Below, one piece after another: positions 48,371 through 57,591 of a stretch of DNA of 64,000 bases. The stretch covers positions 1,311,039 through 1,375,038 of the forward strand of contig NW_015971541.1 in assembly GCF_000182565.1 (NCBI RefSeq), given 5' to 3'. The DNA is from Spizellomyces punctatus DAOM BR117 (lineage: Eukaryota; Chytridiomycota; Chytridiomycetes; Spizellomycetales; Spizellomycetaceae). The notes beneath the pieces are model-generated. The model had not been told where the DNA came from. It saw only the letters and a list, made by a program, of their open reading frames with translations, and did not search any database. The position numbers and the translations under genes are program-made. Position 1 is the first letter of the stretch, and every line of letters begins with the position of its first letter.

Positions 48371-50382
48371 ATGGCAGCAGACAATTCAGGAGCAGAGCTC
48401 GAGGCTGAGAGAACAAACGAACAGCAAGAGACAATAGAAAAGAAAAGCAATGCTGCTCGTCGAAAGTCCAAGTCGAAAGGGATAGCACCAGAGGAGCTGA
48501 TAACGAATGAGAAGAAAGAGATCCCCAATACAAGCTCGACAGATAAAAAGCAGGCTGCTGCATCAAAAAAGTATGATCGTGCAGGAATAACCACCATTTC
48601 CTTGAAAGTGAGTAGAGTGAAGGAAGGAATGGGTGGCATCTTAAGCATGATTTTGACAAGCTACTTTTGCAGGGCGTGGGGGATAAGAAGCTGAAAGGGA
48701 AGCTCAAGAGGTCGGAGAAAGCGGCGCGCGAGGCAGCGTACAAAGCTGCTCAAGCTGAAGTACTGCTTCCAGCTGAGGCTGGATTTTTGGAAGCAGAGGG
48801 TCTGGAGAAAACATGGAAGTTCACACAGAATCAGCTCAAGGACAACTTGGATGCAAATACCAGTAAGAACGTTTTTGACCTCAAGCTGAAAGATTTTGGC
48901 CCGTACACGATGGACTACACTCGGAATGGACGACATATGCTGATTGGGGGACGGAAAGGGCATATCGCTACATTTGACTGGAAGACGGGAAAGCTCGGCT
49001 GCGAACTTCATGTCAAAGAAACCATCCGTGATGTGAAATGGCTACATAATGAAACGATGTTTGCTGTGGCACAGAAAAAGTACACGTATATCTACGACAA
49101 CACTGGTTTGGAAATTCACTGCTTGAGACAACATACTGAGATAAATAAGCTGGAATTCCTACCGTACCATTTCCTCCTGGTTACCGTGGGCAACGCCGGA
49201 TGGCTAAAGTATCAAGATACATCTACCGGCAAACTCGTTGCAGAGCTTCGTACAAAGTTGGGACGGTGCGATACAATGTCCCAAAACCCGTATAATGCCG
49301 TCGTACATCTCGGTCACTCTAACGGGACGGTTACATTGTGGGCCCCCACGGTGTCGACCCCCTTAGTGAAAATGCTATGTCACAAAGGGCCTGTGCAGGG
49401 AATTGCGCTTGATCGAGGAGGAAACTATATGGCCACTACTGGATTAGATGGCCAAATGAAGCTTTGGGATATCCGCACGTATAAATGTCTTCAATCGTAC
49501 TACACTCGAACTCCTGCTGCCACATTGTCGATATCACAACAGGGACTCTTGGCGGTTGGATACGGACCGAACATTAGCGTATGTGATTTACTTAGTTGCA
49601 TTGTGCGTCGTGCTTATCATCATTCTTATCACACTGGGTTCCCTTCGTTATGCAGATTTGGAAAAATGCTTTCAAAACAAAGCAGAAGGAACCATATATG
49701 ACTCACTTAAGCGCCGGCAATATTGTACAAGATATTAATTTCTGTCCTTACGAGGATGTCCTCGGATTTGGTCACAGCAGTGGCATATCTAGCATTGTTG
49801 TTCCCGGATCTGGTGAACCGAACTTTGATACTATGGAAGCCAATCCCTTCCAGACGAAAAAGCAGAGACAAGAAACCGAAGTTCATAACCTACTCGATAA
49901 GGTTCAGCCTGAGATGATTGCCCTAAACCCAGAGTTTATCGGTGCTGTTGATCGGGCACCGGCGGAAGTCATTGCGGAGGAGAGGAGGCTGGAATGGGAG
50001 GTAGGAAAGACCTTCATGTAGTTCGACGCAGCAATACTACTGGACAGTTGTTCACCGGTGCTGTTTGCAGGCAAATCACCCCAACCAAAAGTTTGTCCCC
50101 CAGCACCGTGCTCGAGGAAAGTCCTCCTCTATGCGACGATACTTGCGCAAACAATCGAATGTCCTGGATGCAAAGAAGGTATATTTTGGATTTCTATCGC
50201 TGTTCTCTTCTCTTGTTATTGATATTTCGCATTTGAATTCGTTGCATCAGGTCGAGATGCAAGAGCGTCTCGAAAAGGAAAGAAGAGAGCGTGAGAAGGA
50301 GCGCAAGCGTGCGCGTGGGGAGGGAGAGCCAGAAATACCTCGGACGGCTCTAGATAGATTCACAAAGAAGATAAAAGTCTGA
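48371..50382 (+). CDS. UTP7: U3 snoRNP protein Utp7 / WDR46
   Basis: Starts MAADNSGAELEAERTNEQQE at 48371. A Lys-rich N-terminus is followed by LKGKLKRSEKAAREAAYKAA, then the WD40 propeller: GPYTMDYTRNGRHMLIGGRK, ETIRDVKWLHNETMFAVAQK, YTYIYDNTGLEIHCLRQHTE, NPYNAVVHLGHSNGTVTLWA, GGNYMATTGLDGQMKLWDIR, FCPYEDVLGFGHSSGISSIV. The BING4 C-terminal block follows: VPGSGEPNFDTMEANPFQTK, KVQPEMIALNPEFIGAVD, and a basic helical end with stop at 50382. Utp7 is a nucleolar component of the small-subunit processome needed for 18S rRNA maturation. Introns at about 48607, 49578, 50000 and 50180. Confidence 0.93.
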
Positions 50383-50955
50383 AGGTGTATTGGTCATTAT
50401 TTAATTTTCATTAGCGAGTTTTTAAAGTTCAAGGCTGAGTTGCATATATGCATTCAACAGCACAAGGCTTGTTACCCAAATATCTGCCTACAAACACACT
50501 GGCAAGCGACTGACGTAAGCATCGATCACCCACGTAATCCATTTGTGCACAGTGGACTCTTTGGTTCATCGTCATGGTCAGTGGCAAGTTTTCTATGCAA
50601 GTGTCCAAATGAAGAGTATTTTGGCATGGCAAAGCTTAACAAGCTCCATAAGCGTCGCAGAGCCCTGCTCTTGGCGTTGGTGGGGTTCGACACGGCGCAT
50701 CGCAAAGCCCTGGAGTGGCAAGCTCAATGACTCATCATGGCTCCTGGGGCTTCTTGGCGAGTGTTAAAAGACACAGCTTGTGGTCCGAATAAGGAAAGAT
50801 AGTGGGATTTTGCATGGAGTGTGATGGGATATGTGACTATCGTAGCATATGCTTCAATTGCGCCCAATGAGCGCTTATCCATGAGCGCCCTATAAAAGGT
50901 GTCCTTGAGTTTGAGCTCCGTACCATTGGCAAAAACGCTTTCACACAAAGTCCAG
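50383..50955. other. Intergenic, promoter of the receptor-like fusion
   Basis: About 570 bp with no gene recognised. The right end carries the TATA-like box of the fusion gene. Confidence 0.45.
50891..50898 (+). promoter_or_regulatory. TATA-like box of the receptor-like fusion
   Basis: TATAAAAG, 65 bp before the ATG at 50956. The spacing suits a core promoter with a short 5' UTR. Confidence 0.5.
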
Positions 50956-53900
50956 ATGCATCACTTTTGTCCATCAATCCTCTTTTCTGGTCTCATACTA
51001 GGCGGCTTTCTACCTCTGTTGGCCGCCGAATATCGTTCTTATGATGGGGTTGGCAATAACCCTGGCGGTCTCGCTGGCCTTTCACAGCTCCGGACACCGT
51101 TTAGCGGCGCATGGTACGATATTTCAGATCCCATCAATTATACCAACCGCATTATGGTATTGGAGACAACGGATCCGGTCCTTTCTGCACGTAATGTGTC
51201 CAATCAGATGGCCTCTGCTATGGTCACTGGTGGACCACGTAAAAATAGGAGGATGATCAATGATTTGCATACGATGTGGGGAGCCATGATTGGGCTGGAT
51301 TATGTGTGAGTTTTGAAGTACATGCTTTGGTATTGAATCACGAACCTGGTCTTATAGATGCTGCAATTGGGTCATGTTCAGGAAGACGATGATGAACACC
51401 ACCAACGTCACCATGTCGATCCCGAGGTAAAGTGTTCTTGTTGTGAGCGATTATAGTAGCTGGAACTCCAGAGCTGACACCAGTGACGCATCAGGTGCGA
51501 TGGCTACTTTGACCCCGACTGCAGTGAGTACGAGTAGTGACCCATGTCACTACAAAATGAAATCCTCACCGCCCAAAATACTACCCGGTTGCTAATCCAA
51601 CTTTTAGCCGGTATCAAGAATTTCACATTTCAACGGGCATTCACAAATGAAAGTGCCAATCCCGAAAGAACCGCACTCAATCTCGTCACTCCCTTCCTAG
51701 ATGCCGGCGTCATTTACGGCACGAATGAAACCCGAGCGAGACTTTTACGAACCTTCATCAATGGCAAAATCGTTCTAGACTCTGATGAATTACCCCCACG
51801 AATTTCCGAAATGCCTGCACTGGACATGGTGGGTCCACCTCCTCCATCTCTCGCCACCCAGCTGGGAGATGCAAGTACCCGTGGTGCTCCACGAAGCGAA
51901 ATGAGAGTGGGGGGCGATGCGATTTCAAATGTTAACACATTCGGGTTCGTGATTGTTACGTTATTTATGAGGGAACATAATCGATTGTGCGATCAATTTG
52001 CGAGCGAGCATATAGGGTGGGATGACGAGACCTTGTATCAAGAGGCCCGGAGATGGTAAGTGTTCTGGTATTTGGCATAACTACCTGTATCTTGTAGCTA
52101 CGAGATTTTCGAGAAAATAATCATGCTGTTCAAAATTAAGGGTCATTGCTTTCATGCAACGCATCACTTACTACGAATATTTGCCGGCTCTTACGTCTCG
52201 CGTACTACCTACATACACTGGCTTCAACGCTAGCACGAATCCGCAAGTGACCATCTTCAATTCCGCATGCATTTTACGATACGGACATAGCGAAATGAAT
52301 GATGCAATCGAACGGCTGGATGAGCGATACGTTCCTCACCCACGGGGTCCGATCTTGGTTCGGGATGCCCCTTTTGATCCCGATAAGGTGCTGGATGCTG
52401 GAATTGAACCTGTCTTGAGAGGACTTGTGTCTCAAGTGCAGAATCAAGTGGATTGGGAAGTCACTGGCGATTTACGGAACTGGATGTTTGGGCACCCAGC
52501 GGGAATGCCGGGTGTTGATATGATTGCGCTGGATATTCAAAGGGTTAGTTAAAAGAGACCCGATGATTTAATTCTATATTCACATTTCTGGTTACTTTAC
52601 AGAACCGCGATTTTGGCATCCCACCTTACAATGATGTGCGAGAGTCCTATGGCTTGTCACGCGCGAAATCCTTCCAAGAGATTTCGTCCAATCCTCGAAT
52701 TGCGGCAACGTTGGCAAACATGTACGGGTCGGTCGATAGAGTTGAGGCCTGTATCGGTAAGTCACTGTTGATAAACAAACCTTCAATAATCAGCAGAGTT
52801 GCATGTTCAGCAATATCTGCAGGTGCGCTGGCAGAGGATGAATGGCCCGGCTGCAATATGGGTCAGCTGCTTCATGAAGGCCTTCGGGAACAGCTGACTA
52901 GAATACGGTAGGGCATCTTAGTTCATGTTTAGAGTTACTTTCGTAGGTTACTAAACGATACTGTTAGCAACGGCGACAAATTCTGGTACCAAAATGAGCA
53001 GTTCGCACCCGAGGACCTCAAGATCATCGAGTCAACATTGTTGAGGGACATCATCGCCCGGAATACATTGTGGAAAGATCCGCCAATAAACGTGTTTTTC
53101 TCTCTGGGGGCACAGATGAGCCGAAGAAATCTAGTCGAGGCTGAGCATGCGCTAGCAAAAAATGAAGAGTTCCTTGAAGACTTTCCAAAAATTTCTGGAA
53201 AAGAGCAGGCAATGCATTTAGGACCGGCGTTCAAAATGTACTGGAGTGTCAACGTGAGGAAGGGAGAGGCAGAGTTTGTTGTTGTTGGACGTAATGAGGT
53301 CCGTGCTTTTGCTTTGACGGTTCATTGTTTGTTTTGTTTATACTGAAAAAGTCAAGTAGGGTTGGATTGGCGTAGGATTTGAACCTGATGATTCAGGTAT
53401 GACCAACGCAGACATGGTCCTCGGCTACGCACTCGAAAACGGTACTACCTATATTCGTGGCGCCCGCTCGGTGGCAAACGAGCCCCCAATTCCCTATCCA
53501 ACTGATAACCCTGGAATCACGAACGCAAGCGCGGCACGCATCCATGGATTCACAGTTTTGAAATTCACTAGACCATTAGCTGCCCGTCCTCCATTCAACA
53601 AAACCTTGCCAATTGCAAGACCTGCGAAAGTGGTATATGCAATGAATCCAATGTATGTCGAACCCTTATATCACGGGCCTGAAAGAGGATTGGCAAATGT
53701 GGACTTGGTGCCTGCTTATGGTAAGAAGATGGACTTTAGATCATGTATCAGATCGCTCAACTTTCTTGATACAGTGAACTACCGTCCTGTAACCTTCAAT
53801 AGCGCTATCGGGATTGTTTTCACCGTCATTGGGACAATTCTGCTCTCGATAACACTAGCAACCATATACGTGGTCATTACTCGTCGAATGGACCCTATCG

Positions 53901-55028
53901 TCCGCAGATCAAGTCCACCCTTTCTTCTCATCATCCTGGTCGGCGTGGCTTTGGGGTACGTGTGCATATTCGTCTGGACGATCCCAAGGAGTGATGCCGC
54001 GTGCAAAGCAAGGATGTGGTTGGTAGGATTGGCTTATATCTTGATGTTTGGGTGAGTTCCACCGCCCCGTTGCCGATTGTTCACTGATTCTAACCATCAG
54101 GTGGTGGATACAGCTTTGCAACTGTAAAAAACTACCGTATATACTTGGTGTTTCGGGGAGCAAGTGGATCCAATTTGAGTACTCGCGCCGTTCTTTTGGG
54201 AAGTATCCCATTGCTGGCCATTGAAGTGGTAAGCGAACATCGTCGTGCAAGGCATTTGTATTCCCAATCATTAACAAACATTCATTGGGAGATCCTCCTT
54301 ACGATATGGACATTTGCCGACGCACCATACCTTCGTGTAACCAGCGATATGGTAGATTGTTGGTATGGTCGTGTGATGCCAGCAATTGTGCTGGCATACA
54401 ATCTGCTTATTTTATTGTGCGGCCTATACATTGCCGTGTGCGTCCGTCATGCATATACCGACTATCGGGATTCATTTGCGATTGCATTTTCGGTAAGTAT
54501 CTGCTAATAACTGACACCACAAGTGATCTCAACAAGTATTAACTTTTGGGATAGACGTACAATTTTGTGATGTGCATTATCATTCTTGTACCCGTATCGG
54601 TCTCAGGTCGCACCGCTGTCGAGCGATATGTTCTCGAATGCATAGCAATCCTCTTGGTAACAACAGGGGTCCTAGCGTTTTTCTTTGGTGGCAAGTTATG
54701 GACAATCTATGTCATCAATCGTGGTAGCATCCGTCTTTCTTCGTCATTCGTCCCAGAACACGAGTACCGAGGATCTCGACATTGGGCTTGGTCGTTCGGG
54801 AGCGCTTGGAGGCATACCCTAAGGGTGCGGAACCCGGAGGAACAGAGAGTGGAGGTGACAACACCTGCGAATCAAGAACCAAAACCTGGAGAGGGGGAGG
54901 CTGTTGCCTCGAACAGTGTCATCTCGTCCCCAACGATCGGCCAAGCATTGATGGAGAGGCTTTTCATCGTTAACCGGTCAACAGAAACCCAATCCAAACC
55001 GACCACAGAAACAGAAGGCGTCATATGA
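50956..55028 (+). CDS. Haem-peroxidase-like + DOMON + class C seven-helix receptor fusion
   Basis: About 1090 residues. Exons: 50956-51305, 51382-51426, 51495-51523, 51608-52055, 52141-52543, 52603-52756, 52823-52907, 52968-53298, 53360-54051 (with a likely 54-nt in-frame intron 53721-53774), 54114-54228, 54292-54492, 54555-55028; all phases agree. Residues 1-24 are a signal peptide. Residues 25 to about 560 are an animal-type peroxidase: EYRSYDGVGNN, NPERTALNLVTPFLDAGVIY, ILRYGHSEMND (proximal His 340), NRDFGIPPYNDVRESYGL, NGDKFWYQNEQF. The distal site reads MWGAMIGLD where active enzymes have WGQFxDHD, so Gln, Asp and His are Ala, Gly and Leu. A DOMON domain follows (about 590-720: FKMYWSVN, GWIGVGFEPDDSGMTNADMV, LGYALENG). 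Then come seven hydrophobic helices of the class C type with RSSPPFLLIILVGVALGY, a Cys before TM3 and in loop 2, KNYRIYLVF and a 100-residue tail. Likely a plasma-membrane receptor or haem sensor; ligand unknown. Confidence 0.88.
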
Positions 55029-55910: not shown

Positions 55911-57591
55911 ATGACCTCATCTGGCCGAATGATGAAGCGGCTTCTTCGCCAATTAAACAGAATACCCATGGTAAAAGAAGCAAATGTGAAAACTAGTTTT
56001 TTGCTCCTTGCTAATATGGATAGAAAATCATGTTAGCTTGCATGGATTTTCATCATGAGTGGATTGGGGATCATGTTTGGTCTTGTTGCTCCTCAGTTTT
56101 CAAAAGAGTACCTAGCACTCCTCTCCACTCATATCTTCTTGCCCATGGTGAAATCGCTCATTGTTCCCCTCATATTCTCGTAAGTTGCCTTCTTTTAGGC
56201 TTTTTAAAAAGGGCTGTTGGGCTTAATGTTACGTTTGCGAGCAAGGCTGCTGGTGGTTGGAATTGCTGGACATGGAGACGACCTCGCACGGGTAGGAAAA
56301 CTCGGAGTAAAATCCATGGCGTACTTTCTAGGATTGACTTTTATTGCCAGTGAGTTTCACAGTTTTCATTGGAGGGCCATACTATTATGATTTTCTTTTG
56401 CTTATTCCTTTGTGGTCTCTAGTTTTCATTGGTCTCGGGTTTGGGAATGCGATTAAACCAGGAAACGGAGTGACATTGGGTGAAGTCAAAAACGCCAATG
56501 CCACAGCTGCAATCAAAAGCCAAAAAATCTCCCTAGCATACGAACTCAACCAAATCATTCCCGAATCGTTTTTCGCTGCGGCTTCCGCCAACAAGTCGTT
56601 GCAGATTACCTTTTGTGCAATCATGTTTGCTTGCGCTTGTATGCTGGTCCCGAATAAGGAGCATAAACGAGTCATGGTGGATTTTTTTGATGGTTTGGCG
56701 AACGTCATGTTGTCTGTTACGAATTTAGTGATGAAGTTTACACCTCTGGTGAGTATCTAATTTGAAAAAAACGAATCTAACGTTTCTTTAACCTTTATAT
56801 TCGTTTCAGGCCATCGGCGGAGCCTTGGCGAAAACAATTGCCACAAACGGAATCGGCGTTCTGTCTACTCTTGGAAAACTGATCGGAACCGTTTACCTCG
56901 GCCTCCTCACATTTGTTTTCGTTATCCTCCTTCCCATCGCCCTTTGGGCCAAAGTCCCACTAGTGCCCTTTATGCGACAGGTTTCTCATCCCCTCATCAT
57001 TGCCTTTTCGACTGCCTCATCCGATGCTGCCTTGGCAAAGGCAATGGAGAACATGATAGAGCTGGGCGTTCCAAGGGAAATTGTTTCATTTGTTATTCCT
57101 GTAGGGTACTCGTTCAATCTTGATGGTACAACTTTGTACCTAGGGACTGCAGTCCTGTTCGCCGCGCAGGTTGCCAATGTAAACTGGAGTGTTGGCGAGC
57201 AGATCTTGCGAATGCTCTTGGTCTTGCTAATGAGCAAAGGGATTGCTGGTGTGCCGAGGGCATCGTTGGTAGTCTTGGCCATGGCATGCGACAATTGGAA
57301 CTTGCCAACCGAGATTGTTGGTTTGGTACTTGGAGTGGATGAAATCATGGATATGGCCAGAACGGCTGTCAATTTGCGTATGTGCTCTCTTATTGGCGCA
57401 GATATTCTTGAGATCGTTGGCTAATCTTTGAATGCTTTCGCGGAAAAGTCGGAAATTGCCTAGCTTGCGTCGTTATTGCCCGCTGGGAGGGCGTCTTCAA
57501 ACTATACAGGCAATCGACCGACGACAGCGACATTGAGGACTCCCCTGATGCGCTACATGTGAAGCTAGACGTGGATAAGACTGTTGCATGA
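55911..57591 (+). CDS. Dicarboxylate/amino acid:cation symporter (DAACS family)
   Basis: Multi-exon gene. The N-terminal exon gives MTSSGRMMKRLLRQLNRIPM, spliced to LAWIFIMSGLGIMFGLVAPQ, then HIFLPMVKSLIVPLIFS, IVVGIAGHGDDLARVGKLGV and further helices. The transport core is clear: PLIIAFSTASSDAALAKAME (place of the SSS motif), ELGVPREIVSFVIPVGYSFN, LDGTTLYLGTAVLFAAQVAN, LLMSKGIAGVPRASLVVLAM and DEIMDMARTAVNL with GNCLACVVIARWEG. The family moves glutamate, aspartate or C4-dicarboxylates with Na+ or H+ across the plasma membrane. Spacing is like the bacterial GltP/DctA branch, without the long extracellular loop of animal EAATs. The start could also be the ATG at 55932. The hydrophilic tail ends at 57591. 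Confidence 0.88.

Follow-up and report, generated by a model that had tools for sequence, protein, structure and literature searches.

A class C receptor gene with a predicted peroxidase–DOMON ectodomain in the chytrid Spizellomyces punctatus

Class C G protein-coupled receptors (GPCRs) of animals usually carry Venus-flytrap or cysteine-rich ectodomains. According to a 2025 eLife survey, filastereans and holomycotans exceed animals in the diversity of their class C ectodomains (PMC12716839); those described in early-diverging fungi comprise ANF and several periplasmic-binding-protein types (PMC3251606), and those of gut fungi a pectin-lyase fold, EGF, and SBP-II (PMC5168858). Neither peroxidase nor DOMON is mentioned in the main text of any of the three papers. 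The fungal class itself (class 16 in PMC12842992) is called uncharacterised in a 2026 review, under the name class XVI (7tm_3) (PMC13308352). Here we analyse a gene of the chytrid Spizellomyces punctatus DAOM BR117, located at 50956..55028 on the forward (+) strand of a 64,000-nucleotide stretch (the window; contig NW_015971541.1, positions 1,311,039–1,375,038, of RefSeq assembly GCF_000182565.1), to which all coordinates of the gene refer. Its predicted product resembles the fungal class C receptors in having a 7tm_3 domain, an N-terminal hydrophobic segment, and a large ectodomain, but differs from them in that a peroxidase homology domain followed by a DOMON domain stands where the published ectodomains are of the ANF, periplasmic-binding, pectin-lyase, EGF, and SBP-II kinds. 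It thus represents a new ectodomain type among class C GPCRs, and it belongs to a wider group of peroxidase–DOMON proteins for which the best-ranked literature matches showed no description.

Several described systems share one element or another with this protein. Chemotropism to plant peroxidases through the pheromone receptor Ste2 (PMC13308352) likewise ties a fungal GPCR response to peroxidase action, but there the peroxidase is a separate plant protein outside the receptor, and the GPCR is of a different class. DUOX proteins also bear a catalytically degenerate An_peroxidase domain on the extracellular N-terminal side of a membrane protein; the peroxidase homology domain of DUOX1 has no haem-ligand histidine and no haem density, and the two such domains of the assembly touch (PMC7794343). 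Our model differs in that it keeps the ligand position as His340, has a DOMON, and contains no NOX/ferric reductase or dehydrogenase domain detectable in the Pfam scan. The CYBDOM proteins HYP1 and CRR of Arabidopsis place a DOMON with a Met/His pair ahead of membrane helices, the pair of HYP1 having been proposed as haem b ligands in a model based on cellobiose dehydrogenase (PMC10784544). The present protein shares this arrangement, but its DOMON is preceded by a peroxidase domain and followed by seven class C helices instead of a cytochrome b561 domain; the Pfam scan of the model gave no b561 match, and 7tm_3 occupies the place after the DOMON. A 2013 survey of ferric reductases includes the DOMON among the electron-transfer add-ons, and likewise a peroxidase-like domain, though the two belong to different architecture models (PMC3591440). 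In the titles and abstract openings of the best-ranked literature matches, which did not cover the possibly relevant DOMON survey of Iyer 2007, there was no description of a peroxidase–DOMON tandem or of its fusion to a GPCR, in agreement with an earlier note on this DNA, made from the sequence alone, which knew of no peroxidase–GPCR fusion.

The Pfam scan of the 1090-residue model (E ≤ 0.01) returned only three families, every one above its curated cut-off. An_peroxidase (PF03098, 346.1 bits) spans residues 26–539 (51031..53070, exons 1–8) and is matched over almost the whole of its profile (1–520 of 530); DOMON (PF03351, 54.7 bits) spans residues 593–710 (53230..53644, exons 8–9); and 7tm_3 (PF00003, 145.8 bits against a curated 33.5) spans residues 742–978 (53792..54689). 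A simple hydropathy scan, with overlapping windows merged, shows a hydrophobic N-terminus and seven later hydrophobic segments, the former being a probable signal peptide of about residues 1–23 (50956..51024; hydropathy only). The first membrane helix (TM1) starts little over 20 residues past the end of the DOMON. Measured from the DOMON histidine considered below, as read from the alignment, it starts some 20–27 residues further on, both here and in the more distant relative P0139, a distance too short to accommodate a cysteine-rich domain. The earlier note had read a signal peptide, an animal-type peroxidase fold, a DOMON, and class C helices in one membrane protein and had expected exactly these three profiles; all were found, and the absence of a 7tm_3 match, which it had named as a ground for abandoning the idea, is contradicted by the score.

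The coding sequence consists of 13 exons (50956-51305, 51382-51426, 51495-51523, 51608-52055, 52141-52543, 52603-52756, and 52823-52907 for exons 1–7; 52968-53298, 53360-53720, 53775-54051, 54114-54228, 54292-54492, and 54555-55028 for exons 8–13). It starts with the start codon at 50956, closes with a stop codon ending at 55028, and is free of internal stops once spliced. All 12 introns are of the GT-AG type, with sizes of 54–85 nt. Splicing is needed at nine of them, because read-through meets an in-frame stop; the three open ones are 52757-52822, 53721-53774, and 54229-54291. Within exon 8 (52968..53298), the peroxidase domain ends and the DOMON begins, and the frame 53360..54051 runs from the DOMON into TM1–TM3 without a stop, across the 54-nt in-frame intron 53721-53774, which may be optional (its retention would give 1108 residues). 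The single gene model of twelve or thirteen exons, the common exon, and the common frame had all been proposed in the earlier note, and each agrees with the splice model and, for exon 8, with the Pfam boundaries.

The same architecture was found elsewhere, as that note had suggested should be checked in other genomes. Relatives were taken from the best 120 of 335 matches of one search, the best 120 of 133 of another, and the two matches of a third, each search having scored at most 8000 candidates. P0001, the orthologue from Spizellomyces sp. 'palustris' (0.97-Mb contig; named hypothetical protein in the database) and the nearest protein among these matches, has the same three Pfam domains and is 92% identical to the model over residues 560–1000 and 87% over residues 20–560. 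The two differ in two places, around exons 2–4 and at the junction of exons 8 and 9, where P0001 is probably mis-spliced; at exons 2–4 we prefer our model because its CDGYFDPDC has a counterpart, CDQYFDPAC, in the solved structure of Peroxinectin A. P0139, a EukProt protein of 908 residues with a Trinity transcript name, was found by an eight-sequence profile search (28% identity over 83% of the query) and scores 333 bits against An_peroxidase, 75 against DOMON, and 114.5 against 7tm_3. Its identity to the model is 35% in the peroxidase part and 29% in the helix part (184 positions), and its existence excludes a fusion unique to Spizellomyces. A merger of two neighbouring genes into one artefactual model would contradict the common exon 8, the common frame 53360-54051, and the presence of the same Pfam trio in P0001 as well as in P0139, which derives from a transcript. 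A mis-joined gene pair is, for these reasons, so unlikely as to be almost negligible, and two separate genes were rejected on the same grounds. The presence of peroxidase, DOMON, and 7tm_3 in one predicted protein can accordingly be regarded as nearly certain.

Class C receptors are marked by a cysteine pair between the third helix (TM3) and the second extracellular loop and by an xPKxY motif in the seventh (TM7). In the model, Cys812 (TM3) and Cys889 (before TM5) are present, as are Lys833 in TM3 and Lys980 in TM7, and the solved chains closest to the helices are those of mGlu1 first, with mGlu2 and GABA-B2 also among them. The class C identity that the earlier note had ascribed to the helices is thus borne out by the 7tm_3 score, the seven hydrophobic segments, and the proximity to mGlu1, and as far as can be read from the sequence, the helix domain appears to be a functional one. 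The whole genome comprises 24.0 Mb in 29 contigs. G-alpha matches were obtained in it, the strong ones at five places, and 7tm_3 matches amounted to 31 stretches at about 17 places. Eight other class C loci were fetched; in the open reading frames supplied, six had an ectodomain-type Pfam match and two had none. The six comprised ANF_receptor (three loci), PBP_like_2 (one), kelch with a cysteine-rich stretch (one), and a polymorphic-membrane-protein repeat with a sub-threshold beta-helix (one). In the last two (L020:2079-4302 and L015:2842-4706, respectively), the kelch and cysteine-rich stretches and the repeat/beta-helix-like stretches lie beside the helices.

The closest solved relatives of the protein are 8s6c and then Peroxinectin A (6erc), and the DUOX structures 6wxr and 7d3e are also among the solved matches. 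The alignments place the proximal haem-ligand position at His340 in a conserved RYGHS (52286..52288), but the distal motif, WGQFxDHD in most relatives, is degenerate and reads WGAMIGLD at residues 108–115 (51277..51300), the distal histidine being gone and the calcium-binding Asp115 kept. The GDxRxxE motif reads GDAISNV. The columns whose catalytic roles and residue numbering we take to follow myeloperoxidase thus hold Leu114 in place of the distal histidine, Ile247 in place of the arginine, and Val250 in place of the glutamate, and the domain looks catalytically dead. We examined these columns in 220 aligned sequences, that is, the model and 219 of 220 database proteins, P0002 being excluded with no peroxidase domain listed. 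Twenty-six form the tandem set: the model, 24 listed matches in which PF03098 and PF03351 occur together, and P0209, where the DOMON was assigned by alignment, Pfam giving none. In this set, which is mostly from Glomeromycota and whose rows are not independent, the distal histidine is retained in 3 of 24 rows with a residue at that column, the arginine in 7/25, the glutamate in 3/26, the calcium aspartate in 24/24, and the proximal histidine in 23/26. Among the 194 peroxidase proteins outside the set, the corresponding figures are 184/191, 190/193, 169/193, 183/190, and 185/193. Seven of these outside rows have a residue other than histidine at the distal column and three are gapped; one or several, such as P0212, may be fragments of tandem proteins. 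The distal histidine is kept in P0003 (a cyclase by name), P0004 (with b561), and P0024 (with b5 and reductase domains); P0139 has lost it and keeps the arginine and the glutamate. We considered distal loss as a mark of the signalling fusions alone and rejected this, as it is common in other tandem proteins too.

DOMON domains have been described as haem or sugar binders (PMC10784544, PMC3591440). Alignment within the tandem family predicts Met629 (53399..53401) and His720 (53672..53674) as axial ligands of haem b, these being the analogues of Met90 and His174 of HYP1 (PMC10784544); the pair was assigned by analogy with the HYP1 model, HYP1 itself not being part of the alignment. In the tandem set, the Met629 column holds methionine in 26 of 26 rows and the His720 column histidine in all 25 rows that contain the segment, with an offset of one position in P0004. 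A ten-sequence alignment gave an invariant methionine and the histidine in 9 of 10, P0004 again being shifted by one. Six of ten tandem DOMONs matched the CDH-cyt family at E ≤ 1 (best 7.5e-7), and the DOMON may be of the haem b cytochrome type. A search of the solved structures with the single DOMON sequence produced one hit, at chance level (E 1.4).

The tandem is not confined to receptors. Among the matches listed, it is joined to three kinds of output: cyclases, electron-transfer domains (b561, b5, reductase), and 7tm_3. The three modules described in the earlier note do lie in one protein, but the ectodomain is no one-off, since the tandem recurs with b561/b5/reductase domains and with cyclases. 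P0004 carries cytochrome b561, and P0024, P0063, and others carry b5 and FAD/NAD-binding reductase domains, with b561 just below the Pfam cut-off in P0024 and P0063, the two that were scanned. Such fungal peroxidase–DOMON–b5–reductase proteins (named 'heme peroxidase' in Rhizophagus and Cladochytrium) show the tandem in the same order as here, but with electron-transfer domains in the place of the receptor. The peroxidase–DOMON–cyclase proteins P0003, P0005, and P0127 also combine the tandem with a signalling output, but this is a cyclase instead of helices, and their peroxidase domains fall in a separate clade. Pfam finds Guanylate_cyc in P0005 and P0127; P0003 is named class 3 adenylate cyclase by its source, the Pfam scan giving no cyclase. 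In all three, the tandem is followed by a hydrophobic segment and then by the class III cyclase (in P0003 by name only). These proteins are possibly an undescribed type of receptor cyclase, hardly any literature search having been aimed at it.

The S. punctatus genome itself has An_peroxidase matches at four loci, including the gene in the window. Two of the others, on contigs C12 (L011:2253-7965) and C13 (L009:2472-7705), align in tblastn with peroxidase–DOMON–b5–reductase proteins over much of their length. Pfam recognises the peroxidase in both and b5 and FAD-binding domains in C13; the DOMON of both and the b5 and reductase domains of C12 are placed by the tblastn alignment alone, and b561 is weakly matched in both. 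To judge from these alignments, the two are probably tandem paralogues with electron-transfer domains, and that on C12 retains the distal histidine (YFGQFLAHD). A further An_peroxidase gene (L010; C8:850000-859500) contains a long run of N. Loci on C18, on C2 (L013), and at C8:270000 (L014) read as DOMON–b561–b5–reductase genes devoid of a peroxidase domain; DOMON, b5, and FAD-binding lie above the Pfam cut-off in the first, b561 in the second, and b561 and b5 in the third, the DOMON being sub-threshold in the second and third. The C18 locus (L012:532-3585, minus strand) is one frame of 1018 residues in which a DOMON, b5, and FAD-binding are joined by a b561 below threshold and by an SH3 domain (843–884). 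In a tree of 41 peroxidase domains, where the 'electron' label of P0084, P0086, and P0090 comes from sequence reading, with no Pfam match, the three cyclase rows cluster (100/100), whereas a weakly supported branch (78/55; 79% of bootstrap trees) has all three GPCR rows on the same side. In the simplest account, the tandem would have been part of an extracellular redox protein and would have moved onto a receptor, perhaps a single time.

With a probability that we would put at roughly one half, the protein is a class C receptor that signals to G proteins and whose DOMON haem senses either the redox state outside the cell or a small molecule that is aromatic or interacts with haem, the dead peroxidase domain acting as platform and dimer contact. 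On this proposal, the tandem would derive from a redox protein of the b561/b5-reductase type that worked outside the cell, and would have been placed on a class C helix bundle. The DOMON would bear haem b and report the redox state or the presence of a small haem-interacting or aromatic ligand, the peroxidase domain would offer a dimerising and ligand-binding platform, as in the contacts between DUOX1 peroxidase homology domains, and the change would cross the short linker to reach the helices and then a G-alpha protein. More tentatively, the protein might be a haem- or redox-gated GPCR in which a cytochrome DOMON, capped by a retired peroxidase, reads redox chemistry outside the cell and drives G proteins. 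Eukaryotes would then have joined one extracellular redox module to three outputs or more, namely electron transfer, cyclases, and this GPCR. The suggestion in the earlier note of a redox, haem, or peroxide sensor thus survives in part: with Met629 and His720 retained, the DOMON makes a haem-based ectodomain plausible, but a working peroxidase is unsupported because the distal histidine, the catalytic arginine, and the glutamate are lost.

Several observations weigh against this reading. The haem claim stands on two aligned residues; the DOMON of the model matches PF03351 only and has no match to the CDH cytochrome family at E ≤ 1, and the two CDH-cyt scores inspected, those of P0004 (18.1 bits) and P0093 (24.0 bits), lie below the curated 27. 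Among solved chains, the DOMON profile matches dopamine beta-hydroxylase alone, and the domain has also been described as a sugar binder (PMC10784544, PMC3591440). Distal loss is frequent in the electron-transfer tandems and is therefore by itself no argument for sensing. The cyclase-type P0003 retains its distal histidine, and the second GPCR, P0139, its arginine and glutamate. Finally, the TM7 motif reads GGKLW (978–982), with the lysine kept and the proline and tyrosine not. The strongest rival, though we consider it unlikely, is a polysaccharide or surface-contact receptor in which the DOMON binds sugars, the dead peroxidase domain is an adhesion module, and contact with substrate or cell wall is reported. 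It would fit the sugar-binding description of DOMONs and the dopamine beta-hydroxylase match, as well as the rank of Peroxinectin A as second-best solved match, the name peroxinectin suggesting adhesion, and gut-fungus class C receptors bear putative carbohydrate-binding ectodomains (PMC5168858). However, a lectin would not need the Met/His pair that is kept across the tandem family, and the b561, b5, and reductase modules of the relatives point to redox use.

These same modules lend some weight to another alternative, in which the protein transfers electrons outside the cell and the seven helices are a mere anchor with little or no G-protein signalling, given that most tandem proteins among the matches listed bear b5/reductase domains and not a signalling output. 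This appears improbable, as the class C cysteines and lysines are kept, the helices score 146 bits against 7tm_3, the DOMON–helix region is at least as conserved against P0001 as the peroxidase region (92% vs 87%), and the Pfam scan shows no b561 to supply electrons. An active peroxidase that converts peroxide and a substrate into the ligand of its own receptor could be argued from the retention of His340 and of the overall domain, but Leu114, Ile247, and Val250 occupy the distal histidine, arginine, and glutamate positions, and an alternative in-frame acceptor of intron 1, as read from the sequence, supplies no histidine at the distal site. This alternative has very little chance of being right. 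For the reading that we prefer, a receptor gated through the DOMON haem, the ectodomain amounts to a pseudo-peroxidase joined to a possible cytochrome, in a tandem also found on cyclases and electron carriers. If haem is present, redox chemistry would here be sensed by a GPCR by means of a metal cofactor, and an electron-transfer ectodomain would have been turned into a sensor; and if true, it would provide a testable class of ligands for some orphan fungal class C receptors.

Some features of the gene and its surroundings may be added. Two splicing variants were discarded: a donor at 51304 with exon 2 in phase 0 meets a stop in exon 3, and an earlier AG acceptor for intron 54052-54113 puts the remainder of TM3 out of frame. 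About 60 nt 5' of the start codon lies a TATA-like CTATAAAAGG (50890..50899, + strand), a weak promoter hint read by eye. In the 5' neighbour (window 48616-50021), the reading frames contain a BING4CT domain along with matches of the WD40 type, and on the 3' side, window 56338-56760 holds a portion of a sodium:dicarboxylate symporter (SDF) gene.

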